From an uncultured Sphingorhabdus sp. (GTDB lineage: Bacteria > Pseudomonadota > Alphaproteobacteria > Sphingomonadales > Sphingomonadaceae): 43,284 nucleotides of DNA. The stretch lies in NCBI GenBank assembly GCA_905479715.1, contig CAJQNR010000125.1, forward strand, positions 1-43,284, written 5' to 3'. How positions within the stretch are numbered: the stretch's first letter is position 1; each line of letters begins with the position of its first letter. This document shows positions 5,731 to 33,744 of this stretch, piece after piece. The notes under the pieces are model-generated. The model was not told the origin of the DNA, made no database searches, and saw only the letters and a list, made by a program, of their open reading frames with translations. A program made the position numbers and the translations under genes.

Positions 5731-5887
5731 TGTTCCCGCTCCAGCCCATGCACCGGACAGTTTGATATTGAGAGCCGCCAGCTTGCAAACGGGCATAAGC
5801 GATGGTTGATCGGCACTGCCGGGAAAAAGCCCGGTACCGGGCGCAAGACAGACAAAAAATCAGCCAGCGCAGAAACAACGCTGTCCC

Positions 5888-8208: not shown

Positions 8209-8308
8209 AGGGCCGCTTTCATTTTAGGGGAGGGCGATTGCGGACCAACGAGATGGCCTATGTTCACAGATGCTCCTCCGTCATGTGGTTTCCTGTTCGC
8301 GACGGCGT

Positions 8309-8340
8309 GTTTGCCACCCATGCGCTGCCGGGTGGCAAAC
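8309..8340 (-). terminator. Perfect 11-bp inverted repeat just downstream of the thiolase stop codon (candidate transcript-end hairpin)
   Basis: GTTTGCCACCC (8309-8319), 10-nt loop, GGGTGGCAAAC (8330-8340). Lies 10 bp past the thiolase stop on the minus strand. No obvious U-tract. Confidence 0.5.
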
Positions 8341-8350
8341 CTATCCGCTG

Positions 8351-9601: not shown

Positions 9602-9618
9602 GATGTATTTCCTTATGT

Positions 9619-10436: not shown

Positions 10437-10570
10437 CTATTGGCCGAAAACCCGATGACCCTTTACTGGGCCGAGGAATAACAACGGCGATCGTCGCAAT
10501 TCATATCGGATTCCTCACTGAACCAGGTGTCCGATCGCCATGTTGATGCAATTTTGCCCAGCTTGTTGCC

Positions 10571-13500
10571 CTACGCGCTGGTTGCAGGTTCACTGGCTTC
10601 CCGCTGGATTTTGAGGCGCCGTGTCACTGCAAGCGGGCTTCCGGTTTTCCGGGCCAGCAGATAATAGAATGACGGGATTACGACCAGTGTGAGCAAGGTG
10701 GAAATACTGACACCCCAGACGATGACGATGCCTATCGCTTCGCGGCTGGCTCCCCCGGCACCGGTAGCGAGCATCAGAGGAGTTGCACCGGCAACCGTGG
10801 CAATCGAAGTCATCAGCACGGGACGGAAGCGGCGCTTGGCCGATTCCAATATTGCGGATTCAAACTCCAGACCTTCATCCCGCAACTGGTTGGCAAACTC
10901 GACAATCAGGATGCCATTTTTTGCCGCCAGCCCGACCAGCATGATCAACCCGATCTGGCTGTAAAGATTGAGCGTGCCGCCCATTGCCGTGAGGCCAAGC
11001 AGGCCGCCGCTTACCGCGAGAGGGACGCCCATGATGATGATGAGGGGACTGACGAAACTCTCGAACTGGGCGGCTAGCACCAGATAAACCAATATGATCG
11101 TAAAGCCCAGAACCAGCCAGATCGAACCGCCGGTTTGCCGCAGCGCCCGGCTTTGCCCTTCATAACCAATAGCAGCCACTTCGGGTAGCGAAGCCGCTTC
11201 TGTGTCGAGGAACGTCAAGGCTTCACCGAGCGAATAACCGGGCGCAACCGTCCCTTCGAGGGTGATCGCGCGAAGTTTGTTGAAACGGTTCAGTTCTCCG
11301 GCCTCGGCCCTGCTGTCCAGCGTAACCAGGCCCGATAGCGGAACCAGACTATCATCACGGCCACGGACATAGACATTGGTGAGATCGGCGGCGGTTACCC
11401 GGTCTTCCGGTTCAGCCTGCATGATCACGTCATATTCCTCGCCCCGGTCAACATAGGTACCCGTGGTTCGCGAGCCCATCATCGTTTCCAGCGTCCGCCC
11501 GATTTCCTGCACGGATACGCCGAGATCGGCGGCCCGCACCGTGTTGACGTTGACGACGACCTGTGGCCTGGTTTCCTTGTAATCGGATTCGAGCGTCTCG
11601 ATACCGGGATACTCATCAGCAGCAACAAACAGGGCGTCACGGGCGCGCGTAAGCTCGTCATAAGTATCACCGGCAATGACAAAGCGGATCGCTTCGCCGC
11701 CTCTGCCTCCGATTGTCGAGCCACCGGACGCAAAAACCTGCGCGGCGGGATAGTCCCGAAAGCGCTTGTTCACCTCGGCAACGGTTTCAGCTGTCGTCAT
11801 GTCCCGTTCGTCCCAGGGTTTGAGAAACATGATGATGCGGCCCGCCGAAAAATCGCCTGACGGACCAAAGGAAGCGGGGGCACGAAATAATATTCGCCGC
11901 AGCGGGCCGTCGTCTTCAGTCATCGGCAACACGATGGCTTCAAGATCATTCATGACCTTGACCAGCCGGGGCCAACCGGCGCCTTCCGCAATGGACGCGC
12001 TGCCAAAGATGAACCCGGTGTCTTCCGGCGGGGCAACTTCGGACTTGAGCGTCGTCAGACCGATGGCGACGAAAATTGCGGCCATGCCGAATGCTATTCC
12101 ACCGAGCAGAAATGGCCTGCGAATCCAGCGGGACAATATGCTTTCATATCTGGTGCTGGTTTGCTGGAACTTTTCGTCAACAAAGCGGCTCATCGGGGTT
12201 TCGCCGCCGCCTTTTTTGAGAATTTTCGAGCACATGACCGGGATTAGCGTAAGCGCGACAAAGGTGGAGATTGATACCGCGACGATCATGGTGATCGCCA
12301 GTTCCCGGAACAAAAGCCCGGTTTCGCCGGGCAGGAACATCACCGGTACAAAAACAGCAACCACAACCGCAGTGGTCGCGATAACGGCGAAGCCGACCTC
12401 GCGGGCTCCTTCAAAGGCAGAGACCAGACGGCTTTCACCGCGTTCAATCCGCGCGTAGATATTTTCCAGCACGACAATCGCATCATCAACGACAAGACCG
12501 ATTGCCATCACCAGCGCCAGCAAGGTCAGCAAGTTGATCGAAAGCCCCAGCAGCCAGAGAACAAAAAATGTTCCGATCAGCGATATCGGAACGGTGACCG
12601 CCGGAATGATTGTGGCGCGTACCGATCCGAGGAAAAGATAGATGACGGCGATCACCAGAAACGCAGCAAAGGCAAGCGTTTCCCACACATTTTCAATTGC
12701 CTTGTCGATGAAAACGCTGCTGTCATAACTGACCGCGAGTTCGACACCCGACGGCAGGAGCGGCTTGATCTCGTCAATCCGGTCCTTGATGTCATTGGCA
12801 ACCTGCAGCTCATTGGCGCCGGATTGCCGGATAACCCCCATCCCGACACCGGGACGGCCGTTGGAACGGAAATGGCTGTAGATATTTTCCGGACCCAGTT
12901 CGACCCTTGCGACATCGGCGAGCCGCAGCAATGATCCATCCGCACCCCGGCGGATGACGAGCGCTTTGAAATCATCGACATCGCCATAGGCGCGCGCCAC
13001 GCGCACGGTGAGATTCAGGCCCGTTGATTCGACCCGACCGGCAGGAAGTTCGACATTCTCGCGACGCAGCGCCGCCTCAATATCATTGGGCGACAGACCG
13101 AAAGCGGCCATAGATTTGCGATCGAGCCAAATGCGGATTGCCGGGCGCGCTGCTCCACCGGCCTGAACCCTTGCCACGCCGTCGATGGATGAAAACCGGT
13201 CGACCAATACGCGGTCGACATAATCTGCAAGCCAGAGGGGATCCCGGCCTTCCCCGGTAAGATTGAGCCACATGAAGGGGCGCGCATCCGCATCGACCTT
13301 GTTGATTTCGGGCGGGTCCGATTCCTCGGGCAGATTGTCAAGCGCGCCCGAAACCCGGTCCCGAATATCATTGGCCGCAGCATCGACATCCCTGTCGGGT
13401 GCGAACTCCACGGTTATATCCGAACGTCCGTCACGGGACGAGGAGCGGATCATTTCAATACCTTCAACCCCGGCAATGCGATCTTCAAGTATCTGGGTGA

Positions 13501-18153: not shown

Positions 18154-18873
18154 GTGCGGATGACACGTTTGAAATTCTATTTGGTGATGGGCGCTGCCGT
18201 TGGTCTTGCCGGTACAACACCAGCCTGGGCCCAGTCGACCGGGGAGAGCGAGAGCGTGTCGCGCTTTACCCTGTCCGCCAATGCCGCGATCGTTTCCGAT
18301 TACCGTTTCCGGGGCATAAGCCTTTCTGATCGCGATCCCGCCGTTCAGGGCGGCGTCGATCTCAGCATGGACAATGGTCTGTTCGTGGGAGGCTGGGCAT
18401 CCAGCATCGCGGATACCGGCGGTTCCAACGTCGAAGTCGATCTCTATGGTGGCTATGCCGGATCGGCGGCGGGGCTCGATTATACGGTGACAGCGCTGGG
18501 ATATTTATATCCCGGCGGAAGCGGCGTAAACTATTATGAAGTCAGCGCCGGTGTGGAAAAGGGGCTCGGCCTGGCGACGCTGGGCCTCGAAATCGCCTAT
18601 GTTCCCGATCAGAAAAACTATCCCGGCGATAATGTCTATGTGTCCGGCACAGCGGCAATCGAGATTCCTGAGACGCCATTGTCCGCTACCGCGCGTGTCG
18701 GCCGTGAAACCAGCGATTTCATCAAGAAATGGGATTGGGAAGCCGGGATTGCCTATGCATTGGGAAATTTCACCACGTCGCTATCCTATGTCGATAGTGA
18801 CTATGGCGGTGTGGGTCAGGCTGGCCGACTGGGCCGCAGCGGCCTGGTCGCGTCTATCGCAGTGGATTTCTGA
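18154..18873 (+). CDS. TorF family putative porin
   Basis: 239 aa; signal peptide; LSANAAIVSDYRFRGISLSDRDPAVQGGVDLSMDNGLFVGGWASSI is characteristic of this outer-membrane family. Confidence 0.88.
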   Translation: MRMTRLKFYLVMGAAVGLAGTTPAWAQSTGESESVSRFTLSANAAIVSDYRFRGISLSDRDPAVQGGVDLSMDNGLFVGGWASSIADTGGSNVEVDLYGGYAGSAAGLDYTVTALGYLYPGGSGVNYYEVSAGVEKGLGLATLGLEIAYVPDQKNYPGDNVYVSGTAAIEIPETPLSATARVGRETSDFIKKWDWEAGIAYALGNFTTSLSYVDSDYGGVGQAGRLGRSGLVASIAVDF

Positions 18874-18887
18874 AGGCTTTACTGAAC

Positions 18888-19679
18888 ATGCTACGTCTTT
18901 TCCTTTCCGTTGATATGGTTGGTTCGACCCAGTTCAAGGCAAAATTCAGTGGTCGCGCCAGCGACGGCTGGCTCGATACGTTCCATACTTTTTTCACCCA
19001 TTTCCCGCTCATGCTTGCCGGCCAGCTCGGCTTTGAATTTCTCGACAAGGAGGAGACGCCCGCGGTTGATGTCTGGAAGATGATGGGGGATGAAGTGATC
19101 TTCATGGCCGAGCCCTCGAGCGCCGAGGAACTGGCGTCGATCCTGCGGACCTTGTTGCGGACGATGAAGCTGTATGAACAGCAGCATTATGCAAAATTGC
19201 CGCTGCGTTTGAAAGGCACCGCGTGGCTTGCCGAATTTGGCGAGCATAATATCGAGCTCGATATTCCCGAGCTTTCGTTCAGTGACGGGGCGCCTCATGT
19301 GGACTTTATCGGCCCCGACCTCGATCTCGGCTTCAGGCTTTCGAAATTTGCGCGGCCTGCCAGCCTGGTTCTCTCGCTTGATCTTGTCGAGCTGCTGCTG
19401 GGAGCAGAAAACCTGTCATCGGTCGCGCTCTATCTGGTGGGCCGGGAGGAGTTGAAAGGGGTGTTGTTCGGCAGGCCCTATCCGATCATCTGGATGGCCG
19501 ATGCGGAGACCGGTTTTGATTTCCTGCCGTGGGAAATCGAATCCTGTTCGATGACCGCGTCCGCAACCGATGCGTCTCCCACCGACCATGAAACGCTGCG
19601 CGGTGCCATTGACGACATGCGGCTATATCTGAGCAAGATGCACGGGATCGAACGGGGACCTTTCCGGATCGGCCACTAG
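18888..19679 (+). CDS. Class III nucleotidyl cyclase-homology protein (function unassigned)
   Basis: 263 aa; N-terminal FLSVDMVGSTQFK (FxDxxGST), VDVWKMMGDEVIF (KxxGDE), then GPDLDLGFRLSKFARPASLVLSLDLV at the position of the cyclase NxAxRL region. Confidence 0.65.
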   Translation: MLRLFLSVDMVGSTQFKAKFSGRASDGWLDTFHTFFTHFPLMLAGQLGFEFLDKEETPAVDVWKMMGDEVIFMAEPSSAEELASILRTLLRTMKLYEQQHYAKLPLRLKGTAWLAEFGEHNIELDIPELSFSDGAPHVDFIGPDLDLGFRLSKFARPASLVLSLDLVELLLGAENLSSVALYLVGREELKGVLFGRPYPIIWMADAETGFDFLPWEIESCSMTASATDASPTDHETLRGAIDDMRLYLSKMHGIERGPFRIGH

Positions 19680-19689
19680 GCCCCGCCGG

Positions 19690-21324
19690 TCAGTTGTCGG
19701 CTGCCGATGGTCCTTCGTAACAGACGACGAGGATCGCAATATCGTCCGATTGCGGGACCGCACCGACAAAGCCGCGGACGCTTTCAGCCAGATCTTCCGC
19801 GATAAAGCGCGCCGAGAATTCGGATCGGGCAGCGGCAAGCGCCGTTTCGATGCGGCTGGTGGTGAACAACATGTCTTCTGCATCCGTCGCTTCCGAGACG
19901 CCATCGGTGAACAGGACCAGCGCATCTCCCGGATGAAGCGGGAAGCGGTCGGTCTTGAACGAAACATCGCCAAATACGCCGAGGGCAATCCCCTGGTGCT
20001 TGATCAGGCGCTCGACCGATCCATCGGCCCGGACGATGAACGGGGCCTCGTGGCCACCATCGCTATATTCCACCGTTCCATCGCGCAAGTCGAGGATGCA
20101 GGCGAAAACCGTGACGAACATTTCCGCTGCATTCTCGCGCGAAAGTTCGGCGTTGACCTTCTCCATGATTTCGCCGGTCGAACCGGACGACATGGCGTGC
20201 GCTTTGAACAGGCTGGTTGTCATCGCCATGAACAGCGCCGCCGGAACGCCTTTGCCGGAGACATCCCCGACCACGAAAAACAGGCGGTGATCATCGATCA
20301 GGAAATAGTCGTAGAGATCGCCGCCAACCTCCTTGGCGGATTCGAGCATCGCGAAAACGTCCAGTTCGCTATGATCCGGAAAGGGTGGAAATTTGCGAGG
20401 CAGCATGCCGATCTGGATGTCGCGTGCGGCGGACAGTTCGCCTTCGACCCGTTGCCGTGCGGCGGTCGCCACTTCCATTTCAACCAGATATCGTTGCAGT
20501 CGTGAAATCATGGCCGCCATCGCCTCCGCCAGGCTACCGACTTCGTCACCCCGGCTCTGGCTGATCCGCTGCATGGCTGCCATTTCCTTCTCGTCGGGCT
20601 CAAAGCTGCGCTGCTCGATATTGCGGGTATAGGCTGTCAGGCGCACGAGCGGGCCGACAATGCGGGCTATCAGCAGCCAGCCCACTGCCATCGCCAGCGC
20701 GAACATCATGATGCCGATAAGGATCGATTGTACCAGAGCCTGACTCAGCCGTTTGTCGAGACTCGCCAGATCGATATCGGCCCCGATGACGTGAATACGG
20801 CCGTCTTCGCTGCGGATCGGTTTGTAGATCGACCGGAAGGAGCCGAAGGAGTCGTGATATTCGTCGAACCGGACACGGCCGTCTTCAAAGCTCCGGTAGA
20901 GTTTTTCCGGCGCGGTACGGTAAAGTGCGAAATATCCGGTCTGTGTGCCTTCCTTCAGTTCGGATGATGTCGCGCTGGTGGCGACGGTGCGGATCTCGTC
21001 GCCGAATTTCATATAGGAATAGATATAGACGAAGCCGGAATCGTTGGCGAAGCGGGACAGACGTTTTTGTACCGCGTCAAATTCATCCTGTGGGATGGAA
21101 TCCGGTCCCTCGACCCTGCGATGATAGCCTTCCGGGATGATCTCGCGTCCGGCATTTGCGGCAGCGGCCAGACGGCCGTCGATACCGGCAATTATCTCTG
21201 ATCTGCTGTTGGTATAAAGGGCGGTGGTATAGGCAAAGGCGGAAATCAGGTTCAGGGAGAGCAGTAACAATACCAATTGTGGCTTCAGGCCAAATCTGCG
21301 CTTGCGCTGTACCGTCTCGTCCAT
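19690..21324 (-). CDS. SpoIIE-family PP2C Ser/Thr phosphatase with N-terminal membrane sensor and HAMP (RsbU/RsbP-like)
   Basis: 544 aa; ARDIQIGMLPRKFPPFP, KEVGGDLYDYFLIDDHRLFFVVGDVSGKGVPAALFMAM, VLFTDGVSEATDAEDMLF, SDDIAILVV. Confidence 0.95.
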   Translation of the reverse strand: MDETVQRKRRFGLKPQLVLLLLSLNLISAFAYTTALYTNSRSEIIAGIDGRLAAAANAGREIIPEGYHRRVEGPDSIPQDEFDAVQKRLSRFANDSGFVYIYSYMKFGDEIRTVATSATSSELKEGTQTGYFALYRTAPEKLYRSFEDGRVRFDEYHDSFGSFRSIYKPIRSEDGRIHVIGADIDLASLDKRLSQALVQSILIGIMMFALAMAVGWLLIARIVGPLVRLTAYTRNIEQRSFEPDEKEMAAMQRISQSRGDEVGSLAEAMAAMISRLQRYLVEMEVATAARQRVEGELSAARDIQIGMLPRKFPPFPDHSELDVFAMLESAKEVGGDLYDYFLIDDHRLFFVVGDVSGKGVPAALFMAMTTSLFKAHAMSSGSTGEIMEKVNAELSRENAAEMFVTVFACILDLRDGTVEYSDGGHEAPFIVRADGSVERLIKHQGIALGVFGDVSFKTDRFPLHPGDALVLFTDGVSEATDAEDMLFTTSRIETALAAARSEFSARFIAEDLAESVRGFVGAVPQSDDIAILVVCYEGPSAADN

Positions 21325-21348
21325 GACTGAAATGTAACCCCCCGATGC

Positions 21349-21374
21349 TTCGAACCGCCCGATCGTTCGAACCG
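21349..21374. repeat. Two copies of TTCGAACCG spaced 17 bp apart in the divergent intergenic region
   Basis: ttcgaaccg at 21349-21357 and 21366-21374, upstream of both the phosphatase (minus) and the NTT-like gene (plus). Confidence 0.6.
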
Positions 21375-21453
21375 ATTGAATAGCCTATTCTAAAGAATTT
21401 AGTAAAAAGAATTGTTTAAGAGAAACGGCTATCAGTGCCATCCGGGGGAATAA

Positions 21454-24084
21454 TTGCAGAAATTCGTTAATCATATTTTCCGCCTGGAGCCTGGCGAATG
21501 GTCAAAGCTGGTCCAGTTCGGACTGTTCGGTTTCCTTCTGCAAATGGGCATGGGGATCGGTTTCAGCGCGGGCGATGCTGCATTTCTCAGCAATGTCGGC
21601 GCCGATAGCCTGCCGATCATTTTTCTGCTCACTCCGCTTGTCATGCTGCTCTACACATTGGTCTTCTCCTATCTTCTGGTGCGGTCTTCCATTGGCCATA
21701 TGGTGGATTTCACGCTGGCGGCGCTGATCGCTGGCGGCGCGACGCTTTGGGCGCTGCTTGATGCCGGCCTCGATCCCGAATGGCAGGCAATTTTATATTA
21801 TATTCTCAAACTGTACCTGGCTGTCTGGTATATCGCCCTCTACACGCTGTTCTGGAACTTCACCGATACCTATTTCGATATCCAGGATGCCAAGCGCCTG
21901 TTTCCGCTATTCGCGGCATTTTGCGCGCTTGGCACGGCGACCGGGGCGCTGCTTGTCAGTCTGTTTGCCGGATTGATCCCGATGCACTATTTCCTGCTCC
22001 TGTGGGCCGGAATCGCATTGATCACCGCACCGCTCGCCCGTTTTCTGCGGCGGCGCTGGGGACAGATTGCCGAAAATGACATGACGGTCACGGAGGATGA
22101 CGGCAGCACAGTGAACCAGCTGGCCGAGGTCGGCCGGGCATTTCGCAATTCCCGCTATGCGATTGTTCTGACAATGACATTGTTCGTCACATTGTTGATG
22201 ACCAATCTTGCCGAGTTCCAATATTCCAAGGTCTTGCAGGATGGCCGGAGCGAGGCCGAACTGGCGTCGCTGCTCGGCGCGCTTTACGCAGCGGCCAACC
22301 TCTTCAATCTCGTCGTATGTCTGTTTGTTTTCAATCGGCTGGTCGCCCGGTTCGGCGTGCGCAATGTCGCCTTCATCCAGCCGCTCACCTATTTCGCGGT
22401 GTTCGGCTATTTTTTCCTGCAGGGCGGGACCGGAGCCGCCCTCGCAGCATTTTTTGCCTATCATGGCGTTCTGACCTCGATTCAGTATAATAACGAAAAC
22501 CTGCTTTTCAACGCCGTGCCTTCGCATGTGAAACGGCCTTTGCGAACAGTGATGGAGGGCATGTGCGAGCCGGTCGCCAGTCTCGTTGCGGGCGGCTTCC
22601 TGCTCTATGCGGCGAACCATCTCGATATGCGGGAACTGTCCGGCATCGGTGTGATCACTGGTATGGTGCTGATCGGCGTGGTCGTGGCGCTCCGCCAGCT
22701 CTATCCTGCAGCCATGGCTGCCAATATGCGGTTCGGCTGGCTCAACTTCGGAGATCGCAGCGCGAAATCTCCGCAATATGATTCAGACGCGCAGGATCTG
22801 CTTGAGACGACTGCGCGGATGGATAGCGGGCCCGGAGGCAAGATCGCCCGGAATTTTCTGGAGGCGGCGGCGCCGCCGGCACCGCCAACGGAATCAGCCG
22901 CCGATCTCGAACGTCTTGTTCTGCAACTGGATGGAGGCCCGGAGGACCGCGAGGCGGCGCTGAACATATTGGTTGCTTCCGCCACTTCCGAAGATTTCTA
23001 TCTGATTCCTGCGCTTGCTGCACGGTTACCGGATTTGAACCAGGAGCAAAGGCTAAGGATCATCGATCTTTTCGGCCGGATCAGCGACGTCGAAGCCATA
23101 CCCGAAATCCTGGGCGCAGCTGGTGGTCTTTCACCGCGCGACCGGCGGGCGGTCGCTGCAATCCTTGCGGCAATGGGCGAGACCGCCATCCCGCGGCTGT
23201 TGTTTGCCATGGGGGACGGAACCCAAAGCTACCGCATCCGTTCGATCGCGGCCCGGGCCTTGGCCGAACTGTCCCTGGCGCAATTCATGTCGCATCTGGA
23301 CAGGCTGGTGCAAACCGAGCTGCGTGACACCGGCAGGCTGCTTGCCAGTGCCGACCGGCTCGAACGCAGCGACCGGTCGTCTGCTTCGCTTGTCCTCCTC
23401 GCCCGCACCCAGCGTGAACGGGTTGCGGCAGCGATCGATTTCGTGCTGGAATTGCTCTCGCTCGGCGGGCGGTTGCCCAATGCCGACCTGCTGATCGTGT
23501 CGCTCCATTCTGCCAATGCGAAAGTGCGTGGCAATGCCATCGAAACCATCGAAAGCGGCGTTGATAATCCGACATTCCGACAATTGGAACCCCTGCTGAG
23601 GGCTCATGCTCGGCCGGCTGGCGAGGAAAGCGGAAATGGCGATATCGACGGACTTCTTGAAACGGCTCTGCGAAGTGGCCGGTCGACCGAAGCGGCTGCT
23701 GCGGCGGATATTCTGTACGAGATGCTGGATGATGCGACATTCTCCCGTCGCGTGCAACCGCTTGTCCGACCGGGCATGCCGTGGATCCTGCGTGATCAAT
23801 TGCTGGCCCTTTACGGACTCGCAAAACCGGCTTGTCCGACGGCCCTCCAAATTCTGCAGGCTTTGAGCCAATCAGAGGAATTTGGCAGTGCGACGCTCGA
23901 ATCCCTGTTGGCGCTTGCGGAAAAAGCCCAATGGTCGAGACCCGCCGGATCCGCATTTCAGATATCGGTCAGGGATATTCCGGCCTGGATCCTGCACAGC
24001 GATATACGGGACATAGCAACGCGCTATTCCGATCTCGCTCTTGTTATGCTGCGGGCAATAGATGGTCGTCGATATGCAGCGTAA
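21454..24084 (+). CDS. Npt1/Npt2 (ATP:ADP antiporter)-like MFS protein with C-terminal HEAT repeats
   Basis: 876 aa; N-terminal polytopic region (LVQFGLFGFLLQMGMGIGFSAGDAAFLSNVG...YFDIQDAKRLFPLFAAFCALGTATGALLVSL, in the style of the NTT domain); C-terminal alpha-helical repeats (REAALNILVASATSEDFYLIPALAARLP...EAIPEILGAAGGLSPRDRRAVAAILAAMGETAIPRLLFAM). Confidence 0.8.
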   Translation: MQKFVNHIFRLEPGEWSKLVQFGLFGFLLQMGMGIGFSAGDAAFLSNVGADSLPIIFLLTPLVMLLYTLVFSYLLVRSSIGHMVDFTLAALIAGGATLWALLDAGLDPEWQAILYYILKLYLAVWYIALYTLFWNFTDTYFDIQDAKRLFPLFAAFCALGTATGALLVSLFAGLIPMHYFLLLWAGIALITAPLARFLRRRWGQIAENDMTVTEDDGSTVNQLAEVGRAFRNSRYAIVLTMTLFVTLLMTNLAEFQYSKVLQDGRSEAELASLLGALYAAANLFNLVVCLFVFNRLVARFGVRNVAFIQPLTYFAVFGYFFLQGGTGAALAAFFAYHGVLTSIQYNNENLLFNAVPSHVKRPLRTVMEGMCEPVASLVAGGFLLYAANHLDMRELSGIGVITGMVLIGVVVALRQLYPAAMAANMRFGWLNFGDRSAKSPQYDSDAQDLLETTARMDSGPGGKIARNFLEAAAPPAPPTESAADLERLVLQLDGGPEDREAALNILVASATSEDFYLIPALAARLPDLNQEQRLRIIDLFGRISDVEAIPEILGAAGGLSPRDRRAVAAILAAMGETAIPRLLFAMGDGTQSYRIRSIAARALAELSLAQFMSHLDRLVQTELRDTGRLLASADRLERSDRSSASLVLLARTQRERVAAAIDFVLELLSLGGRLPNADLLIVSLHSANAKVRGNAIETIESGVDNPTFRQLEPLLRAHARPAGEESGNGDIDGLLETALRSGRSTEAAAAADILYEMLDDATFSRRVQPLVRPGMPWILRDQLLALYGLAKPACPTALQILQALSQSEEFGSATLESLLALAEKAQWSRPAGSAFQISVRDIPAWILHSDIRDIATRYSDLALVMLRAIDGRRYAA

Positions 24085-25348
24085 GTCCGTCCCGATCAAA
24101 ACGCTTTTGCTGCGTATCTTTGTGCCCGCAGTGGTCCTTGTGTCGATGCTGCTCGCCATCTTCGTGTATAACTGGCTCTATAGCACGATCATCGACGGCT
24201 TTGACCGCAAGTTGACCACGACCAGCGCACTGACCGGAGCGTTGATCGATCCAGTCGACCATGACCAGCTGATACGCGCCGCCTTTGCCAAAGAAGATTC
24301 CGACGTTGTCGAGCAGTCTGCACCCTATTTGCAAAATGTCATCCCGATCCGGCAAATCCGGTCGAAACTGGATTTGACCTATCTCTATACCCAGGCGGCC
24401 GGAGGATCGCAGGACGTAACCTATATCCTCGATGGTTCGGAAGGAGACGATCATTCCCCGATCGGTTCGGAAGATGACTTGCCCGATATGACCATGAAAG
24501 GTCTCAACAATACAGAGGCTGGCAAAGAGATTTACGTTTCCCCGATAGAATATCAGGAGCAGTGGGGCCTGTTGAAGACCGCTCTCGCGCCAGTTTATGG
24601 CAGCGACGGGCAAATAACCGCGACCGCGGGCGCCGATGTCAATATCTCGGTGATCCAGGTGGCCACCCAGAACACCCTGTTCGCCAGCGCCCTGATCGGC
24701 ATTGGTTCGATACTGGCCTGCCTGCTGGTCGCGCTGATGATCGTGCGCAGGGTGGCCGGGCCGATCGAAACGCTCAAGGACGACGCGCTAAAATTTGCGG
24801 CCGGTGATGGTCATGAATCGTTGCGGGCAGCCGCACCGCGGGAAGTATCCGGTTTGCGTGATGCGCTCGCGGCGCTGGCCGAAAAAATGGCCATGGCTAA
24901 AGTTTCTCGCGAGACCACGGCTGCCCGGCATGAAAATGATGCCGACGCAGCATTGCTGCTGCAAGCCGCCGGGCTGAACGGTCAAGAGATGGTGAAGCTC
25001 ACGGAAGAAAATGGTGCGCGCATCTTCTGGATTCCCGGCAGCGACGGGAAGGTCGAAACTGTGCTGGCATCACGGTCCATGGTTCGGTTGGCCGAACATT
25101 TTCTGAAAAATCCGGCGCTCGCGAAGAACTGGCGGAGCCTCGCAGATAATGATCACGGCGCATGTCTTGTTGTCGATGACCGGAAACAGCTGATCGAGCT
25201 TGTCGGAAAGGCTGATGTTACCGTCCGTTGCGATGGCCGGGAGCTTTCGCTTGCTCCCGGATCGCCTGTTGCGTTCGACGCTGAGGTCGATGTCCTGCGG
25301 ATCGCTGCAGGTGGCTATCTGAGCCTTGCAAAAGGTCCGGTGCAATGA
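24062..25348 (+). CDS. Membrane sensor-like protein with extracytoplasmic domain and HAMP-like linker; no recognisable output domain
   Basis: 428 aa; N-terminal TM, periplasmic region (LDLTYLYTQAAGGSQDVTYILDGSEGDDHSP), second TM, VRRVAGPIETLKDDALKFAAGDGHESLRAAAPREVSGLRDALAALAEKM. Start overlaps the preceding CDS by 23 nt. Confidence 0.75.
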   Translation: MVVDMQRKSVPIKTLLLRIFVPAVVLVSMLLAIFVYNWLYSTIIDGFDRKLTTTSALTGALIDPVDHDQLIRAAFAKEDSDVVEQSAPYLQNVIPIRQIRSKLDLTYLYTQAAGGSQDVTYILDGSEGDDHSPIGSEDDLPDMTMKGLNNTEAGKEIYVSPIEYQEQWGLLKTALAPVYGSDGQITATAGADVNISVIQVATQNTLFASALIGIGSILACLLVALMIVRRVAGPIETLKDDALKFAAGDGHESLRAAAPREVSGLRDALAALAEKMAMAKVSRETTAARHENDADAALLLQAAGLNGQEMVKLTEENGARIFWIPGSDGKVETVLASRSMVRLAEHFLKNPALAKNWRSLADNDHGACLVVDDRKQLIELVGKADVTVRCDGRELSLAPGSPVAFDAEVDVLRIAAGGYLSLAKGPVQ

Positions 25349-25734
25349 TTGCGGTCGACACCGTTCGCAAACTGCTTGCGCTCAGCGCGGCCAGACCGTT
25401 TGATGTGCTGACCGAAAGCGAATTGTTGCTTATCGCAATGCACGCGCACCAACGCCATTTTGCACCCGGCGCAACGATATTTGCCGCAGGCCAGATTGCG
25501 GACATGCTGGTCATAACCATTGCCGGCGAGGCGCATGTTCTGGGTGAGCGGGCTCCTGCCATATTCGACCCCGCATCGGCACTCTTCGGCCTGCCGGTTC
25601 CAGATGCAATTGTTGCAGGTCCCGACGGGCTGGAAGCCCTCTGTCTGGCGAAGCCGCACCTCTTCACGATTGCGCGGGAATGCCCCGATTTTGTCGTCGG
25701 GCTGGTTGCGCTGGGATCGGATGGCACAGCATGA
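25345..25734 (+). CDS. Cyclic-nucleotide-binding-like (Crp-like beta-roll) domain protein
   Basis: 129 aa; HQRHFAPGATIFAAGQIADMLVITIAGEAHVLGERAPAIFDPASALFGL resembles the CNBD beta-roll. ATGA overlap with both neighbours. Confidence 0.6.
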   Translation: MIAVDTVRKLLALSAARPFDVLTESELLLIAMHAHQRHFAPGATIFAAGQIADMLVITIAGEAHVLGERAPAIFDPASALFGLPVPDAIVAGPDGLEALCLAKPHLFTIARECPDFVVGLVALGSDGTA

Positions 25735-26993
25735 AGATCCGCTCGATCATCATCCTGCTGACGGTTCCGCTATTTCTTGTCATGGCGTCGGTGAACGGAG
25801 CGCTTCTCTATTTTCAACAGAAAGCCGAAATGTCGCGTGCGCTCGGCGAGCAGGCCCTTGCAGCAGCGGTGGTTACCGCCGAATTTGCCGCTGAAATGGA
25901 GGACCCGCAACAGGAACTGGCCAAGCCGTTCAGACGCCAGGCAATGGATGCTGCGAGCCGCCGGATCGTCGGCCTGCAAGCCATTTATCTCGTCGATGCT
26001 GACGGCGCAGCGATGCCGCTTACAACGGATTCGGTCGCGTGGCTGCCGCAGCCCGAGGCTCCGGTCGTCAAGGAGCGCATTGCCCCGACGATGACAGAAA
26101 CTGGCGGACCGCGCTTTGTTGCAGCTTTTGCTCCCGCCGCCAATGGCCGCTTCGTCGCCGTGCGGCTGAACGCCGAACCGATGTTTGCGCAGATCGAGAA
26201 TATCAAGCGGGCAATCCTGTGGATCGTCCTGGGTGCCAGTATATTTGCCGCCGGGCTTAGCTGGTTCGTCGCTCGTCTTATCGAGCGCGAATTGCGGATC
26301 AACGGCCAGTCGCTCGCCGCGATTGCAGCGGACAAAATAATTTCCGGTGAAGATGGTTTGCGGATCCGGGAAACGCGTGATCTGGCCGATGCTGTCCGGC
26401 TGATGGGAGCGAGCCAGGGTGCTGCCGAAATGCGTGATCGCCGGGTTAGCGCGCGGAATGACCGGACGCGGACACTTGGAGAAGCGGTTCTCAGATCGCG
26501 GGCCTTGCTGTTCAAACCCTCCGAACAGCAGGCTGCCGGTGCCCGGATTGCGATGCGCATCTGCGGCGACGCGCCGCCGGGGGCGTTTTTTGCCCTTGCC
26601 GCTGCGGAGGAAGAAGCATCAGTGGTGATTGGCTGTTGTGCTGCCGGGGACCCGGTGAGCGCCCTGGCCCAGGCAGCCGCAGCGCGGCGCTTTATCGAAG
26701 CCAATTGGACCGCTATGGGGGCAGAAAATTGCATGGCTGTTGCGCGTGAGGCCTATGGTATCGAAGAAACGGCTAGCGTTGCATGGCGAAGCGATGAGCC
26801 GCTGCAACCCGATGGGCGATTGCTCTGCATTGCCGATGCCGACGTTGCTGTCGCAGCGCAGCGCTATATATCGGCAAATTCGGACGCGACGCCGGCAGAA
26901 TGGCTCGAGGCGATAGAAATCCTGCTTGCGCCATCCGGGATATTCGGTGTGGTTGGCGCGTCCGGATCAGGCGATCGCAGCCAGAGCGCTTGA
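25731..26993 (+). CDS. Membrane sensor-like protein with C-terminal region resembling a degenerate SpoIIE phosphatase domain
   Basis: About 420 aa; N-terminal signal anchor, second TM (AILWIVLGASIFAAGLSWFVARLIERELR), C-terminal GAFFALAAAEEEASVVIGCCAAGDPVSALAQAAAARRFIEA collinear with GGDLYDYFLIDDHRLFFVVGDVSGKGVPAALFMAM of the phosphatase at 19690. Confidence 0.6.
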   Translation: MKIRSIIILLTVPLFLVMASVNGALLYFQQKAEMSRALGEQALAAAVVTAEFAAEMEDPQQELAKPFRRQAMDAASRRIVGLQAIYLVDADGAAMPLTTDSVAWLPQPEAPVVKERIAPTMTETGGPRFVAAFAPAANGRFVAVRLNAEPMFAQIENIKRAILWIVLGASIFAAGLSWFVARLIERELRINGQSLAAIAADKIISGEDGLRIRETRDLADAVRLMGASQGAAEMRDRRVSARNDRTRTLGEAVLRSRALLFKPSEQQAAGARIAMRICGDAPPGAFFALAAAEEEASVVIGCCAAGDPVSALAQAAAARRFIEANWTAMGAENCMAVAREAYGIEETASVAWRSDEPLQPDGRLLCIADADVAVAAQRYISANSDATPAEWLEAIEILLAPSGIFGVVGASGSGDRSQSA

Positions 26994-27299
26994 GACATCG
27001 GGTTCAATAGCAAAAATGCTGCTGAAACCGCTAATGTCGAAGACTTCCTGAACCGATGGCGAGAGACCGGACAGAACCAGCCTGTGCCCCGTGGTTTTCG
27101 CGATTTTTGCACCTTTCAGCAATACGCGCAGTCCGGCCGAGCTGACATAGGCGACATTACCGAGGTCCATCACGGTTGCTTCATTGACTTGAACCCGTTC
27201 GGGAAGAACCGCTTCGAGTTGCGATGCCGTGTTGCTGTCGATCCGGCCGGAAGCAACAATCACCAGCGCCTCGGGCTTGAGTTCTTCGCTGATCTGCAT
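26967..27299 (-). CDS. STAS domain anti-sigma factor antagonist-like protein
   Basis: MQISEELKPEALVIVASGRIDSNTASQLEAVLP...VMDLGNVAYVSSAGLRVLLKGAKIAKTTGHRLVLSGLSPSVQEVFDISGF; conserved Ser-Ala-Gly-Leu-Arg site. Confidence 0.92.
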   Translation of the reverse strand: MQISEELKPEALVIVASGRIDSNTASQLEAVLPERVQVNEATVMDLGNVAYVSSAGLRVLLKGAKIAKTTGHRLVLSGLSPSVQEVFDISGFSSIFAIEPDVSSALAAIA

Positions 27300-27422
27300 C
27301 TGTCGCCTCTGTGCCAATGGTTTTGTCTGTCGGTTCTATGTTAAAGAGATTGAGAAATTTTTCCACTCGATTAAGCTGGTTTCAGGAAATTTATATGGCA
27401 GGTGCAGGGATCGAGGCTCACG

Positions 27423-27845
27423 ATGTCCAGTTTTGAGCGCACCCTGAAAGATGGGCGAGGAGGTTTTGCGGGGTTCCTCGAGGCCATCGAAGCCTATCTG
27501 GATGAACAAGGCGTTCCGTCCGCAACTGCGGCGCAGCTGATGATTGTCTTTGACGAGGTGATCAGCAATGTCTTCAGCCATGGCGATGATGGCGGCAAGC
27601 CGTCCGTGCATGTTCAGATTGATATTCGGGAGAACTCCGTCCGCGTCGAAATTGCCGATGACGGGAATGCCTTCGATCCTCTCTCCCGGCCGGAGCCCGC
27701 CACCGATCTGCCCGTCGAAGACAGGCCGCTTGGCGGACTGGGCCTGCATATCGTGCGCAAACTAATGGACGATATTGTCTATTCCCGGAAGGATGGGTGG
27801 AACAGGCTACGATTTTTTAAAGTCTTCCCGCTAGAGTCCAGCTAG
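27423..27845 (+). CDS. ATP-binding protein, RsbW-like anti-sigma factor kinase (HATPase_c_2)
   Basis: FDEVISNVFSHG (N box), VEIADDGNAFDP (G1), RPLGGLGLHIVRKLMDDIVYSR (G2). Confidence 0.92.
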   Translation: MSSFERTLKDGRGGFAGFLEAIEAYLDEQGVPSATAAQLMIVFDEVISNVFSHGDDGGKPSVHVQIDIRENSVRVEIADDGNAFDPLSRPEPATDLPVEDRPLGGLGLHIVRKLMDDIVYSRKDGWNRLRFFKVFPLESS

Positions 27846-27852
27846 TGCAATC

Positions 27853-28359
27853 ATGCGCTGGTCATTAATTGCTTCAGACAGGGAAGATCTTGAAATGTAT
27901 CAAGAAACATCATCCGAGCTATTTGCCCGTAGCCATGCGAATGATGATCTGGCGATTTGCTATGATGAAGCGGTTGGCCTTGGCGTGGTGGCACGGGTCA
28001 GTTTTTCCAGGGGCGACCTGCTTGACCGTTTCACCGGTACAATCGGGCCGGAACTCACGCAGCATAGCCTGCAGGTAAGCCCGGGCTGGCACATTTCCGG
28101 CACCCGTTTCGTTGGTTATATTTCCCATGGTTGCGATCCCAATTGTCGGCTCGACATGCAGCGTCAGGAGCTGGTTGCCTTGCGCGACATTGCCGCGGAC
28201 GAACTGCTCAGTATCGATTATGCAGAGACAGAAGACCGGCTGTTTGCCAATTTTTCCTGCAGCTGCGGCGCCGAGAATTGCCGCGACTGGATCGTCGGGC
28301 GCATCGAGGCGGGCCAGTCGCCTCAAAACAATGTAAATGACGCCGGTCACCGGCACTAG
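27853..28359 (+). CDS. SET domain-containing protein methyltransferase-like protein with post-SET Cys cluster
   Basis: 168 aa; GLGVVARVSFSRGDLL, GYISHGCDPNCRLD, ALRDIAADELLSIDYAETE, FSCSCGAENCRDWIVG. Start may be MYQETSS at 27895. Confidence 0.88.
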   Translation: MRWSLIASDREDLEMYQETSSELFARSHANDDLAICYDEAVGLGVVARVSFSRGDLLDRFTGTIGPELTQHSLQVSPGWHISGTRFVGYISHGCDPNCRLDMQRQELVALRDIAADELLSIDYAETEDRLFANFSCSCGAENCRDWIVGRIEAGQSPQNNVNDAGHRH

Positions 28360-28364
28360 ACCGG

Positions 28365-29597
28365 GTGATGACCATATCGCCAAGCCTCTCGCCCTGCGAA
28401 AATTTCTGGTGGGAGCGAAATGATCTCCATTATCACGACAACCGGCTACAATTTGCCGGCCATGATGTCGGTGCCTTGGCGAGCGAAGCGAACGGACCGC
28501 TTTATCTTTACTCGCTCGACCGGGCAGCTGCCAGGCTCGATGCTCTTTTGCAGGCGCTTGACGCAACCGGCTGCGCACATCGCATCTATTATGCGATGAA
28601 GGCAAATCGCTTTGCGCCGCTCCTGCAAATGATGGCCCGGTCCGGAAAATGCGGCGTCGATATTTGCTCCCCCAATGAGCTGGATCTCGCCCTGTCCTGC
28701 GGTTTCCGCGCCGACCAGATCAGCTTTACCGGCACCGGCGTCGCCAATCGCGACCTCGATCGGCTACTCGCACATCCCGAACTGGTGATCAATTGCGATT
28801 CAATCGGCATGATCCGGCGGATCGGCGAGCGCGAACCCGGGCGCACGATCGGTATTCGCGTCAACCCCGGACTTGGTACCGGATATGGAGATAATAGCCT
28901 GTTGACCTATGCCGGTGCGCGCACCACCAAATTCGGTATTTACCGGGAGCAATGGGCCGAAGCCCTGGATATGGCGCGCAGGTTCGATCTGAAGGTCAGG
29001 ACGCTGCATTTTCATGTCGGATGCGGATATCTCGACGACCAGCTCGCAAGCTGGGAGGAGGCCGTCACCGCCGCGCTTTCCTGCACCGCGGATCTGCCCG
29101 ATCTGGAAATGGTGAATATTGGCGGAGGCCTTGGCCTGCCTCACCGCGCCGCCGACAAGCCGCTCGACCTGACGCGGTGGTCCGCCATCTTGCGGTCGCA
29201 TTTTTCCGGAACCGGTCTGACCGTCGCGGTCGAGCCGGGGGATTTTCTGGTCAAGGACGCCGGCATGCTGGTGCTCGGTGTCACCGATATAGAGCGCAAG
29301 CGCGACACGCTGTTTGTCAGTGTCGATGGCGGGTTTAACCTGCATCCCGAACCGGCCTTTTACGATATGCCATGTGAGCCGGTGGCCTGTCTGATCAGAA
29401 GCCGTGATCCCGCCGACTGGCAAAATGCGACCATCGCCGGCAATATCAACGAGGCTCTTGATATCTGGGGAGAGACGGTCGCCGTACCGCCGCTTTGCGA
29501 AGAGGACCATATCGCGCTTCTCAACGCAGGGGGCTATGGCGCGTCGATGAGTTCGAATCATTGCATGCGCGGGGACTTCACCGAAATCGCAATCTGA
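28365..29597 (+). CDS. Type III (alanine racemase-fold) PLP-dependent decarboxylase homologue (ornithine/diaminopimelate decarboxylase family)
   Basis: 410 aa; YYAMKANRFAPLLQMMARSGKCGVDICSPNEL (PLP Lys), LHFHVGCGYLDD, MVNIGGGLGLP, AVEPGDFLVKDAGMLV, NAGGYGASMSSNHCMRGDF. Confidence 0.9.
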   Translation: MMTISPSLSPCENFWWERNDLHYHDNRLQFAGHDVGALASEANGPLYLYSLDRAAARLDALLQALDATGCAHRIYYAMKANRFAPLLQMMARSGKCGVDICSPNELDLALSCGFRADQISFTGTGVANRDLDRLLAHPELVINCDSIGMIRRIGEREPGRTIGIRVNPGLGTGYGDNSLLTYAGARTTKFGIYREQWAEALDMARRFDLKVRTLHFHVGCGYLDDQLASWEEAVTAALSCTADLPDLEMVNIGGGLGLPHRAADKPLDLTRWSAILRSHFSGTGLTVAVEPGDFLVKDAGMLVLGVTDIERKRDTLFVSVDGGFNLHPEPAFYDMPCEPVACLIRSRDPADWQNATIAGNINEALDIWGETVAVPPLCEEDHIALLNAGGYGASMSSNHCMRGDFTEIAI

Positions 29598-30584: not shown

Positions 30585-31148
30585 ATGGGGAGCAATCGCC
30601 ATGAAAGTGAAGTTGAAAGCCGCAACCTAGACCTGTCCGAAGAATTGATCGCAGAAACCTACGACGCTTTGCGCCGGATCGCGTCGCGACAGCTTAGCCG
30701 ACAGGCCACCGGTCCATCGCTCAACACCACCATGATTGTCCACGAGGCCTGGCTGAAATTGTCCGCCTCCGAGGATTCTTCCTATACTGACCGCAACCAT
30801 TATCTGGCGACGGCATCCCGTGCCATGCGGCAGATATTGGTCGACCATGCCCGCCGCAAGACCGCCGGAAAACGGGGCGGCGGTGCGGCCCATGTCCAGC
30901 TCGACGAAAATCTGGTCGCGGACACCGCACCTTCGGATGCCATATTGACTGTTGATGATGCGCTGGCGGTGCTCTCTGACCGCGTCCCGGAACTGGAGGC
31001 GGTGGTCGAATGCCGGTTCTTCGCCGGTCTGACCGTCGAGGAAACCGCACGGGCCCTGGATCGGTCCACGCGGACCGTCGAGCGGCAGTGGACACGGGCG
31101 CGAATCTATCTCGCCGAACATTTTGTGGCGGATGATGATGCTGTTTGA
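30585..31148 (+). CDS. ECF-type RNA polymerase sigma factor (PF07638-like)
   Basis: 187 aa; ELIAETYDALRRIASRQLSRQATGPSLNTTMIVHEAWLKLSAS...ARRKTAGKRGGG...FFAGLTVEETARALDRSTRTVERQWTRARIYL. Confidence 0.92.
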   Translation: MGSNRHESEVESRNLDLSEELIAETYDALRRIASRQLSRQATGPSLNTTMIVHEAWLKLSASEDSSYTDRNHYLATASRAMRQILVDHARRKTAGKRGGGAAHVQLDENLVADTAPSDAILTVDDALAVLSDRVPELEAVVECRFFAGLTVEETARALDRSTRTVERQWTRARIYLAEHFVADDDAV

Positions 31149-31257
31149 CGTTATCAGACCGACAAGGGGATTCATGGTCGCCTGTGCATTCTCATGGAAA
31201 CCGGATCGCAAACCGGTCCTCCCAATCTAGCGGGTCGCCTATGACAACGGACGCAAT

Positions 31258-33744
31258 ATGAAGCAGGATAGCGGCAAGTCTGATTGGGAAAGGGTGGATG
31301 ACGCTCTCGACCATGTCTTGTCACTGGCGTCCGGCAAGCGTGCTTCGTGGATCAAGAAGCATTTCGCCGCCGAACCTGCCCTTGGTTTGCGGACGCAATT
31401 ATTGCTCGACAAGGCGGTCAATAATGATGCGCTGTTCACCGTGCTGGAGCAAAAGCGGGACATGTTGCTCGACATGGTCGTGCCGGAATTTGCCAGCGAT
31501 TCCGACGATCCGCGCGTAGGGGCGCTCTACGGCCCGTGGAAAGTCGTCGCGCATATCGGATCGGGCGGCCTCGCCGAGGTTTATGAAGTCGAGCGCGATG
31601 ATCATCGCTATCAGCAGAAAGCGGCGCTGAAGATCATGCGCGCGTCGATCCTGAGCGATGACCTGATCAAATTATTCCATCGCGAACGCAATGTGCTGGC
31701 CAGTCTCGACCATCACGGGCTGGTGAGGATCATCGACGGCGGCGAGACCGCCACAGGATCACCCTGGCTGGTCATGGAACATGTCGACGGTCTGGTGATT
31801 ACCGAATATTGTGTGACAAATGACTTGCCTCTGGCGGAGCGGCTTGCGCTCGTCGCACAGGCGGCCGACGCGTTGCAGGCCGCCCATAACCGGCTGGTCC
31901 TGCATGGTGATATCAAAGCCGAACATGTCGTGGTTCAGGCCGATGGTCTGATAAAGCTGCTGGACTTCGGAATCGCGCAATTGCTCGACGAGGACGGGCT
32001 GGGTGGCCCCGCCATCGCCGTGTCGCCCGCTATCGCCTCGCCCGAACATCATGCCGGGAAAGCCTTGACCGTCAGCAGCGACATTTTCCAGCTGGGTCTG
32101 GTCCTGAAACAGCTGATCGCCGATTTTGACCTTGATGCCGATCATCTGGCGGTGGCGGAGATGGCAACGGCAGCCGATCCGGCGGCAAGATATCCGTCCG
32201 CTTCGCAATTCGCCATGGATCTGAGACATCTGATTGCGGGTCATGCCGTCATGGCGGCACCGGATAGCAGAGCGAGAGGGCTTTGGCGCCTGATCAAGCG
32301 CAATCCGGGGACCAGCGCTTTGGCCGCCTCCTTGTTGCTGGGTCTCGCCGGCTGGGGACTGACCGCCTCAATCTATGCAAACGAGCTCCGCGAACAACGC
32401 AATATCGCGATCGCGGCTCTGGACCGGGTCGAGCGGGGCAAGGATATGCTGCTCAATCTGTTCCGGCGGTTCGACCCGCTGGAAATGGATGCAGTCGGCC
32501 CGCAATCGGCGACAACCCTCAGGATGCTTGAGGCATCTCTGGCGGACGCGCGCATAAGCTTGCAGGACGATCCGGCCCTGATCGCTGATCTGCTCGGCTG
32601 GACGGCACGGGGCTATCAGCGCGCCGACGATCTGCCGGGCGCGGAAAAACTGGCCGCAGAAGCGGTGGCGTTGCTGGATGAAGCCAGAGCGCCGCAAGAC
32701 AATGTTTATGCCTCCGCTCTTGCCTATCTGGGTAATCTGCAAAGTCTGGGTGGTGACCGGAAAGCCGGTCAGCCGAAGCTCGACAGGGCGATGGTCTTGC
32801 TGGATCAGAACCAGAGCGACGATATTCACGCACTTGATATAATGTTGGTCGTGGCCTGGAATCAGGAAGGAAACTGGACGGAACAGAAGAAGCTGTTCGG
32901 ACGCGTGGAAACCCTGGCCGGGAAGCTCGGCCAAATCCCTGCCGCGGTTGAAGCCGGTTCGGGGCTGGGCCGGTCGCTGGCTGGTCTGGGCGAAGGGGCA
33001 GCTGCGCAAGTGCAGCTCGACAAAACGCTTGATGTGGCCCGAAAATATTACGGCGATAATCATCCGCGCCTGTCGATCATCTATTCCGATCTTGGCCGGC
33101 TGGCAGCATCGCAGGGCAAGCCGCAAGCGGCGATAGAATGTCATCGCAAGGCTCTGGAATTGTCGGTCGCGGCCTTTGGCTCCAGCCATTCCTCCAACCT
33201 GTCCCATCGCAGCAATCTGGCAATGGCATTGATCGAGGCCGGCCAGATCGAAGCCGCGATATCCGAGTTTCGGCAGATTCTGGCGCAGCGGCAGTCCGGA
33301 CAGGGCGAGCGGAGTCTGGAAGTGGGAGAGGTAAAGCAAAATCTTGCCGCCGCCCTTGTCCAGACGGAGCAATTTGCGCAAGCCGAAGCGGAGTTGCGGG
33401 ACGCCGACAAGATTTTCGCGCTCCATCTTCCGGACGGTCACCCGCGGCGGGCCTTTCCATCACTGACCCGCGCCGAAATGCGTATCGCGCAAGGCCGTTA
33501 TCCAGAGGCGCAGGTTGACGCGCGGCGCGCCTATGACCTGCTGTCGCGGGTATTGCCTGCCGGCCATTTCGCGACCGAAGTGGCCCGGTGCCGGATCGGG
33601 ATGTCTTTGCTGGGACAAGGCAAGAACAAGGAAGCGCAGCCGTTTGTTCAGGTCGCCTATCGGGGCCTGAAGGCGTCGAAAATGCCGCTGCCCGACCGCT
33701 ATCTGCTTCCCTGCAAGGCGGCCGCAGCGAAATTCTCCACCTAG
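31258..33744 (+). CDS. Serine/threonine protein kinase with C-terminal TPR repeats
   Basis: 828 aa; IGSGGLAEVYEVERDDHRYQQKAALKIM, HGDIKAEHVVVQADGLIKLLDFGIAQL, single TM (ALAASLLLGLAGWGLTASIY), then TPR-like repeats. Confidence 0.92.
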   Translation: MKQDSGKSDWERVDDALDHVLSLASGKRASWIKKHFAAEPALGLRTQLLLDKAVNNDALFTVLEQKRDMLLDMVVPEFASDSDDPRVGALYGPWKVVAHIGSGGLAEVYEVERDDHRYQQKAALKIMRASILSDDLIKLFHRERNVLASLDHHGLVRIIDGGETATGSPWLVMEHVDGLVITEYCVTNDLPLAERLALVAQAADALQAAHNRLVLHGDIKAEHVVVQADGLIKLLDFGIAQLLDEDGLGGPAIAVSPAIASPEHHAGKALTVSSDIFQLGLVLKQLIADFDLDADHLAVAEMATAADPAARYPSASQFAMDLRHLIAGHAVMAAPDSRARGLWRLIKRNPGTSALAASLLLGLAGWGLTASIYANELREQRNIAIAALDRVERGKDMLLNLFRRFDPLEMDAVGPQSATTLRMLEASLADARISLQDDPALIADLLGWTARGYQRADDLPGAEKLAAEAVALLDEARAPQDNVYASALAYLGNLQSLGGDRKAGQPKLDRAMVLLDQNQSDDIHALDIMLVVAWNQEGNWTEQKKLFGRVETLAGKLGQIPAAVEAGSGLGRSLAGLGEGAAAQVQLDKTLDVARKYYGDNHPRLSIIYSDLGRLAASQGKPQAAIECHRKALELSVAAFGSSHSSNLSHRSNLAMALIEAGQIEAAISEFRQILAQRQSGQGERSLEVGEVKQNLAAALVQTEQFAQAEAELRDADKIFALHLPDGHPRRAFPSLTRAEMRIAQGRYPEAQVDARRAYDLLSRVLPAGHFATEVARCRIGMSLLGQGKNKEAQPFVQVAYRGLKASKMPLPDRYLLPCKAAAAKFST

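Follow-up and report, generated by a model that had tools for sequence, protein, structure and literature searches.

The contig examined here (the window, 43,284 nucleotides; CAJQNR010000125.1 of an uncultured Sphingorhabdus genome, GCA_905479715.1, 2.86 Mb in 189 contigs) carries a block of ten to eleven genes that is a real and conserved signalling module, apparently undescribed: a variant of the partner-switching systems whose reading would be novel if its NTT-HEAT protein proves to be a receptor. The gene order is por, cyc, spo, ntt, sen, cnb, pse, sta, hat, set, dap (our labels), with spo and sta on the minus strand, and domains were called by Pfam and NCBIfam scans of the window proteins (Table 1). 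An earlier, sequence-only reading of this DNA had described eight consecutive signalling genes, and the eight open reading frames (ORFs) do occupy 18888-27845 exactly as it placed them; what it missed are the SET, decarboxylase and porin genes, as the unit extends past 27845 into set and dap and usually takes in por as well. In the open-access literature, we found no description of a locus combining partner switching or SpoIIE with SET, HEAT and CNBD in the host genera.

The block recurs in other genomes. A tblastn search of plasmids returned a single NTT-HEAT relative, carried by an 850-kb Sphingomonas paeninsulae replicon (L008, NZ_CP032828.1), where the order is identical from porin through decarboxylase and spo and sta again lie on the minus strand; a family-level search then gave a third copy of the block, and a phylum-level search a fourth, outside Sphingomonadaceae. 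In the main scan, a four-sequence NTT-HEAT profile run against about 85,000 species genomes recovered 32 loci with the block besides the window (a single-sequence genome scan had given no match). The carriers, dispersed among bacteria of soil and water, belong to the Sphingomonadales genera Novosphingobium, Sphingopyxis, Erythrobacter, Sphingomonas, Rhizorhabdus and Sphingorhabdus and to Phenylobacterium (Caulobacterales); one further locus, whose host is placed no lower than Alphaproteobacteria, groups with those of Phenylobacterium. Gene order is identical at 33 independent loci, window included, and thus not due to chance, and flanking genes are common to at most 5 loci, so that the borders of the block are sharp. 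A strain-specific artefact is thereby rejected (32 loci, two orders), and the conservation of the neighbourhood, which the sequence-only reading had named as its own critical check, extends across both orders. One supposed extension, a 150-amino-acid downstream gene common to the window and S. paeninsulae, was discarded as not homologous.

All 32 loci but one hold the block as far as their contig ends reach. The exception, from Phenylobacterium (L038), has cyc-spo-ntt-sen-cnb-pse on one contig and sta-hat-set-dap-por on another contig of the same genome, an arrangement that, like the separate divergent promoter regions, might be taken to mean that two modules, cyc-spo-ntt-sen-cnb-pse and sta-hat-set-dap, merely travel together under common regulation. 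We consider this very improbable: the division would part the phosphatase from the kinase and from its expected substrate, the split genome retains both halves, and the window genome has no other SpoIIE or RsbW-type kinase over the cut-off.

Since the 32 loci had been chosen by NTT-HEAT, the prevalence of cyc and SET was tested independently. Among 80 Phenylobacterium genomes, NTT-HEAT occurs in 10 and the cyc orthologue in exactly those 10, with no genome holding either one without the other (the chance of such an exact match is 6e-13 under independence of genomes, which does not hold). The SET orthologue is present in 9 of these 10, the block of the tenth running off its contig, and at E<1e-60 it was found in none of the Phenylobacterium genomes that lack NTT-HEAT. 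Likewise, cyc occurs in 9 of 401 Sphingomonadaceae genomes, each time with NTT-HEAT close by, and three congeners of these carriers without cyc are also without NTT-HEAT. Judged by these gene distributions, the block is inherited all-or-none; the block tree, being midpoint-rooted, leaves inter-order transfer undecided.

Functionally, spo, sta and hat are, by gene content and sites, a complete Rsb/Spo-type switch, and the sequence-only reading had recognised all three. The phosphatase motifs GGD, GDVSGKG, FTDGV and DD are conserved in 33 sequences, with the metal-binding Asp invariant; the STAS protein (E=7e-16) is of the anti-sigma-antagonist type, with an invariant phospho-site, YVSSAGLR, in 30 sequences; and the kinase, RsbW-like by NCBIfam, has intact and conserved N-, G1- and G2-boxes. 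In the source genome, spo is the only SpoIIE and hat the only HATPase_c_2 match above cut-off, and therefore the trio is probably mutually dedicated.

No sigma factor, though, is encoded among the eleven block genes, nor is any flanking gene conserved that could supply one, a point not raised by the sequence-only reading, and the output therefore probably departs from the textbook. In Alphaproteobacteria, general stress normally runs through PhyR-NepR-EcfG, which we count against a classical anti-sigma switch, in which hat would sequester a sigma factor from another part of the genome, leaving cyc, set and dap as accessory or regulon genes. Such a switch would suit hat and sta as ordinary RsbW/RsbV-type proteins whose textbook output is a sigma factor, and it has a precedent in Chlamydia, where the gene for sigma66, the target of RsbW, lies apart from rsbU (PMC4552016); however, it would have to accommodate a conserved block without a sigma factor and without conserved flanks, and would not explain why cyc, set and dap are always present. 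We regard it as possible but doubtful. Published partner switches either free a sigma factor, as in Bacillus and Chlamydia (PMC4552016), or activate a cyclase directly, as when SiaC switches on the diguanylate cyclase SiaD (PMC8457831, PMC7647112), and a cognate sigma factor is also missing from Sia-type switches, so its presence does not define all partner switches. Because the block lacks a sigma factor but always holds a cyclase-fold protein, an output of the direct cyclase activation type is favoured by analogy, and the SET/decarboxylase pair is another candidate output.

The cyclase homology that the sequence-only reading had assigned to the first of its eight genes is borne out by the predicted structure. 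Pfam gave no significant match for cyc (nor for sen and pse), and its AlphaFold2 (AF2) model (predicted local distance difference test, pLDDT, 90.3) has, according to Foldseek, the class III nucleotidyl cyclase fold, matching CyaC, Cya2 and Rv1900c at E about 1e-9 and prob 1.0. D9, K64, D68, D139 and R150 are invariant, so that five of six class III catalytic positions are kept, which we take, from known class III cyclases, to be the two metal Asp (Asp9, Asp68), the Lys and Asp base contacts (Lys64, Asp139) and the Arg (Arg150). At the sixth position, where class III cyclases normally have an Asn that stabilises the transition state, all 32 sequences have Asp (Asp146). Other Phenylobacterium genomes (L065, L066, L067, L070) encode a lone, distant cyc paralogue of 333-405 amino acids with VDLVGST and WKxNGDE-type motifs kept; lying outside any such block, it is not a block member, and is by its sequence a second, unlinked branch of the cyclase-like family.

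On the membrane side, ntt-sen-cnb-pse (21454-26993), which the sequence-only reading had thought probably co-translated, very probably form one translationally coupled unit, because the joints ntt>sen, sen>cnb and cnb>pse hold in nearly all loci. The overlaps it had seen were confirmed, ntt/sen sharing 23 nucleotides at 24062-24084 and ATGA joining sen/cnb at 25345 and cnb/pse at 25731; across the 32 relatives, the first is 11 or 23 nucleotides (8 once), most often 11, by which sen would start at 24074 in the window, and the other two are 4 nucleotides each in nearly all loci. The NTT-like/HEAT reading of ntt stands for its architecture, which fits the NTT-HEAT(-cNBD) family (NTT domain, then HEAT repeats, cNBD adjacent) and is collinear with NTT-HEAT-cNBD proteins of other classes; by domain score it is weak, as TLC (NTT, 16 bits versus a cut-off of 21, E=0.0055) and HEAT_2 (E=1e-5) both fall below the Pfam cut-off. 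The CNBD-like call for cnb, at E=0.025 with Pfam, became secure with a 31-sequence profile (E=2e-14 to 1e-5 against CNBDs in the PDB), and the protein ends in an invariant tail, PH.FT..RE.P.F. Its phosphate cassette (LFGL...) has no conserved Arg in alignment A10, the phosphate-binding Arg being absent. With this Arg missing and the TLC match below cut-off, the suggestion in the sequence-only reading that the complex reads nucleotides finds no support.

The two remaining members of this unit resemble the phosphatase itself. Over the TM-sensor-TM-HAMP part (TM, transmembrane), sen matches spo by hhalign (97.8-98.2%, E about 1e-13), with HAMP in 27 of 32 members and a variable coil at the C-terminal end, and is, by this homology, a SpoIIE sensor half without phosphatase domain. 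For pse, the match to spo is collinear along TM, HAMP, coil and PP2C start (hhalign 85-90%, E=1e-6 to 6e-6), GGDLYDY and GDVSGKG of spo are replaced by PPGAFFAL- and GCCAAGD-like segments with loss of the catalytic Asp, and the predicted cytoplasmic domain weakly resembles the RsbX and RssB C-terminal domains (E=0.009), so a pseudophosphatase with degenerate PP2C domain is the best reading and not proof. Evolutionarily, spo, sen and pse are thus aligned as three paralogous membrane sensors, and the mirror-tree correlation within the block is highest for ntt-pse (0.96).

Gene fusions bear on how these proteins might be grouped. In one Sphingopyxis metagenome-assembled genome (L051), sen and cnb are fused (sen 3-349, cnb 335-458), and NTT-HEAT proteins with a fused cNBD occur in other lineages (L028, L029, L030), as Major et al. 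2017 (PMC5381601) have described; taken together, the two kinds of fusion suggest that NTT-HEAT, CNBD and sen work as a single complex. Among these fused relatives, L030 (G460, 6325-13128) has tandem NTT-HEAT-cNBD genes in another alphaproteobacterium with no partner switch nearby, and in L028 (G532, 5116-10263) the fusion has genes for an ODC-like decarboxylase and a SET protein as neighbours and a PP2C gene upstream. A wider NTT-HEAT, SET and decarboxylase core modelled on G532 was rejected, its SET gene having no relative in 47 other genomes of the class, and is a lead at most.

If the NTT-HEAT protein were instead a real transporter, for nucleotides or other metabolites, the switch would tune uptake and metabolism (the decarboxylase) and would not be driven by NTT-HEAT. 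The NTT-like domain, together with a porin and a metabolic enzyme within the block, speaks for this, as does the cNBD-tuned nucleotide uptake proposed for NTT-HEAT-cNBD proteins by Major et al. (PMC5381601); yet the TLC match is below cut-off, relatives of ntt give MFS-like scores, there would be no need for the two sensor-like proteins that lack activity, and nucleotide metabolism genes are lacking. We think active transport unlikely, and prefer a membrane receptor or scaffold.

At the downstream end of the block, set keeps its SET and post-SET Cys motifs, with H92, C94, Y123, C136, C138 and C143 invariant. The decarboxylase-like dap keeps the pyridoxal phosphate (PLP) lysine K79, H217 and other fold-III motifs, and has lost the catalytic Cys of the C-E-x-x-D motif: at this position all 29 relatives have Asn (GNINEALD). 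Diaminopimelate decarboxylase (LysA) was rejected on this replacement and on a score of 208 bits against the equivalog cut-off of 297.9 for the lysA model, and the residues kept and lost make an altered chemistry likely. In Novosphingobium mangrovi (L058), set and dap are fused (set 9-150, dap 160-561), which points to the SET protein and the decarboxylase acting as a pair. The porin gene is a frequent member of the block, found 5' of cyc in Sphingomonadales and 3' of dap in several Phenylobacterium.

Transcriptionally, the layout is that of several units and not one operon, because sta and spo lie on the minus strand: spo and ntt point away from each other, as do sta and hat; hat, set and dap follow one another in the same direction, and por-cyc make up another unit. 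The element TTTTCCACTCGATTA (within TTGAGA...TTAAGCT) is present in the sta/hat intergenic region and not upstream of the other transcription units; it is strongly kept in Sphingomonadales copies, more weakly in Phenylobacterium, and is a possible promoter or operator candidate. No RNA element was matched when the window was compared with Rfam.

Taken together, we posit, with about as much belief as doubt, that NTT-HEAT, sen, CNBD and pse assemble into a membrane sensing complex, which governs how active SpoIIE is on a SiaABCD-like switch. The NTT-HEAT protein would have turned into a membrane receptor or scaffold, and the complex would bind a small molecule in the membrane or periplasm, which the porin may let in; it would then set the activity of SpoIIE on phospho-STAS, either by HAMP/coiled-coil pairing or by pse competing with the true phosphatase. 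Unphosphorylated STAS could titrate the kinase, or bind and switch on an effector directly, as SiaC does with SiaD, the likeliest effectors being those that remain with the block: the class III cyclase and, linked to the kinase, the SET/decarboxylase pair. More tentative, and to our minds less probable than that outline, is the full picture, in which a transporter-turned-receptor gates the switch together with a dead phosphatase, a sensor lacking the phosphatase domain and a CNBD of non-canonical type, and the output is the cyclase and the SET/decarboxylase pair, with no sigma factor. The sequence-only reading had likewise proposed a membrane complex feeding the partner switch, which fits the coupling, the sensor paralogy, the sen-cnb fusion and the published NTT-HEAT-cNBD fusions (PMC5381601), and which we infer rather than observe.

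Several points weigh against this mechanism. Because Asp replaces the transition-state Asn, cyc may bind nucleotide without turnover. The PP2C call for pse combines the weak fold match with a profile match that owes most to the membrane and HAMP parts; the sen-cnb and set-dap fusions are single cases in draft genomes, the latter of which may stem from one insertion or deletion; and the mirror-tree correlations are uncorrected for shared ancestry and were not used as proof. Finally, any contact of STAS with cyc, the SET protein or the decarboxylase is hypothetical, and the target could be a sigma factor encoded elsewhere.

Of known systems, the block is close to SiaABCD of Pseudomonas aeruginosa (PMC7647112, PMC8457831), with which it has in common, within one locus, a membrane HAMP-PP2C phosphatase, a small kinase, a small STAS-like phosphoprotein, a cyclase and no sigma factor. 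The SiaABCD cyclase is a GGDEF diguanylate cyclase, whereas that of the block has a class III fold; the conserved block contains no GGDEF diguanylate cyclase (GGDEF/EAL genes lie next to it at some loci only), and SiaABCD has no NTT-HEAT, no CNBD, no SET protein or decarboxylase and no counterpart of the two inactive sensor paralogues. By analogy, the block may work like Sia, but is not a SiaABCD member. To our knowledge, descriptions of Synechocystis IcfG and Bacillus RsbU/V/W include no transporter-like receptor, pseudophosphatase or cyclase partner; the PP2C/STAS/HATPase trio and a metabolic input are what these switches have in common with the block (IcfG is mentioned in PMC11619594).

Chlamydia offers a further parallel. 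There, RsbU, for which a periplasmic ligand-binding domain and sensing of alpha-ketoglutarate are reported (PMC11619594), has a membrane paralogue, CT589, without metal-coordinating residues (PMC4552016), an active/inactive pair that by its published description resembles the one proposed here, and an NTT-HEAT protein is also encoded (PMC5381601). The chlamydial Rsb genes are scattered, however, with sigma66 as target, and no linkage to a cyclase, CNBD or SET/decarboxylase is reported there (PMC4552016, PMC11619594). Proteins of the NTT-HEAT(-cNBD) type occur widely, with Chlamydia and cyanobacteria among their hosts, and a paper of 2017 drew attention to them as uncharacterised (PMC5381601). 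The block resembles them in its NTT-then-HEAT architecture with the cNBD adjacent or fused, and differs in that the cNBD has a gene of its own, set off from ntt by an inserted sensor gene, within a partner-switch block; the accessible text of that paper reports no partner-switch link.

One NTT-HEAT class can now be linked with a complete partner switch and a constant set of gene partners, and from this comes the receptor or scaffold hypothesis; if true, this would give a function to NTT-HEAT-cNBD proteins without known role. Besides SiaABCD, the block may be a second example of a partner switch that targets a nucleotide cyclase, and it provides a natural context in which one phosphatase predicted to be active stands beside two paralogous non-catalytic sensors. 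It is carried by cultured, named strains of Novosphingobium, Sphingopyxis, Sphingomonas and Phenylobacterium.

Table 1 Genes and conserved element of the block, with positions in the window.
Feature	Position	Strand	Description and support
por	18154..18873	+	TorF/Gcw_chp outer-membrane porin-like, 239 aa (amino acids); PF09694 E=5e-41
cyc	18888..19679	+	Class III nucleotidyl-cyclase-fold protein (predicted), 263 aa; AF2 and Foldseek
spo	19690..21324	-	TM-sensor-TM-HAMP-PP2C (SpoIIE) phosphatase, 544 aa; PF07228 E=2e-47, HAMP
ntt	21454..24084	+	NTT-like transporter domain and HEAT repeats, 876 aa, TTG start
sen	24062..25348	+	TM-sensor-TM-HAMP-coil, without output domain; SpoIIE sensor-half paralogue
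cnb	25345..25734	+	Stand-alone CNBD, 129 aa; profile against PDB CNBDs
pse	25731..26993	+	TM-sensor-TM-HAMP-like with putative degenerate PP2C domain; spo paralogue by hhalign
sta	26967..27317	-	STAS, anti-sigma-antagonist type; PF01740, PF13466, TIGR00377 above cut-off
Conserved element TTTTCCACTCGATTA	27359..27373	+	Divergent sta/hat promoter region
hat	27402..27845	+	RsbW-type serine kinase, HATPase_c_2; PF13581 E=2e-22
set	27853..28359	+	SET-domain lysine methyltransferase-like, post-SET Cys cluster, 168 aa; PF00856 E=9e-7
dap	28365..29597	+	Fold-III PLP decarboxylase-like enzyme; PF02784 E=2e-32

A known defence system was rejected for the window, PADLOC giving no match. Near the block, within its non-conserved flanks, the window encodes at 30585-33744 an ECF-sigma-like ORF followed by a large Ser/Thr-kinase-like protein, both recognised by reading the translation. 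On the S. paeninsulae plasmid, the block is followed by genes for a response-regulator protein, a diguanylate cyclase and a chaperone-usher pilus, and in L009, L054, L059, L060 and L061 a gene for a protein of ~650 amino acids (of GGDEF/EAL type, as read from its sequence) adjoins the block downstream, which hints at a cyclic di-GMP linkage in that clade.

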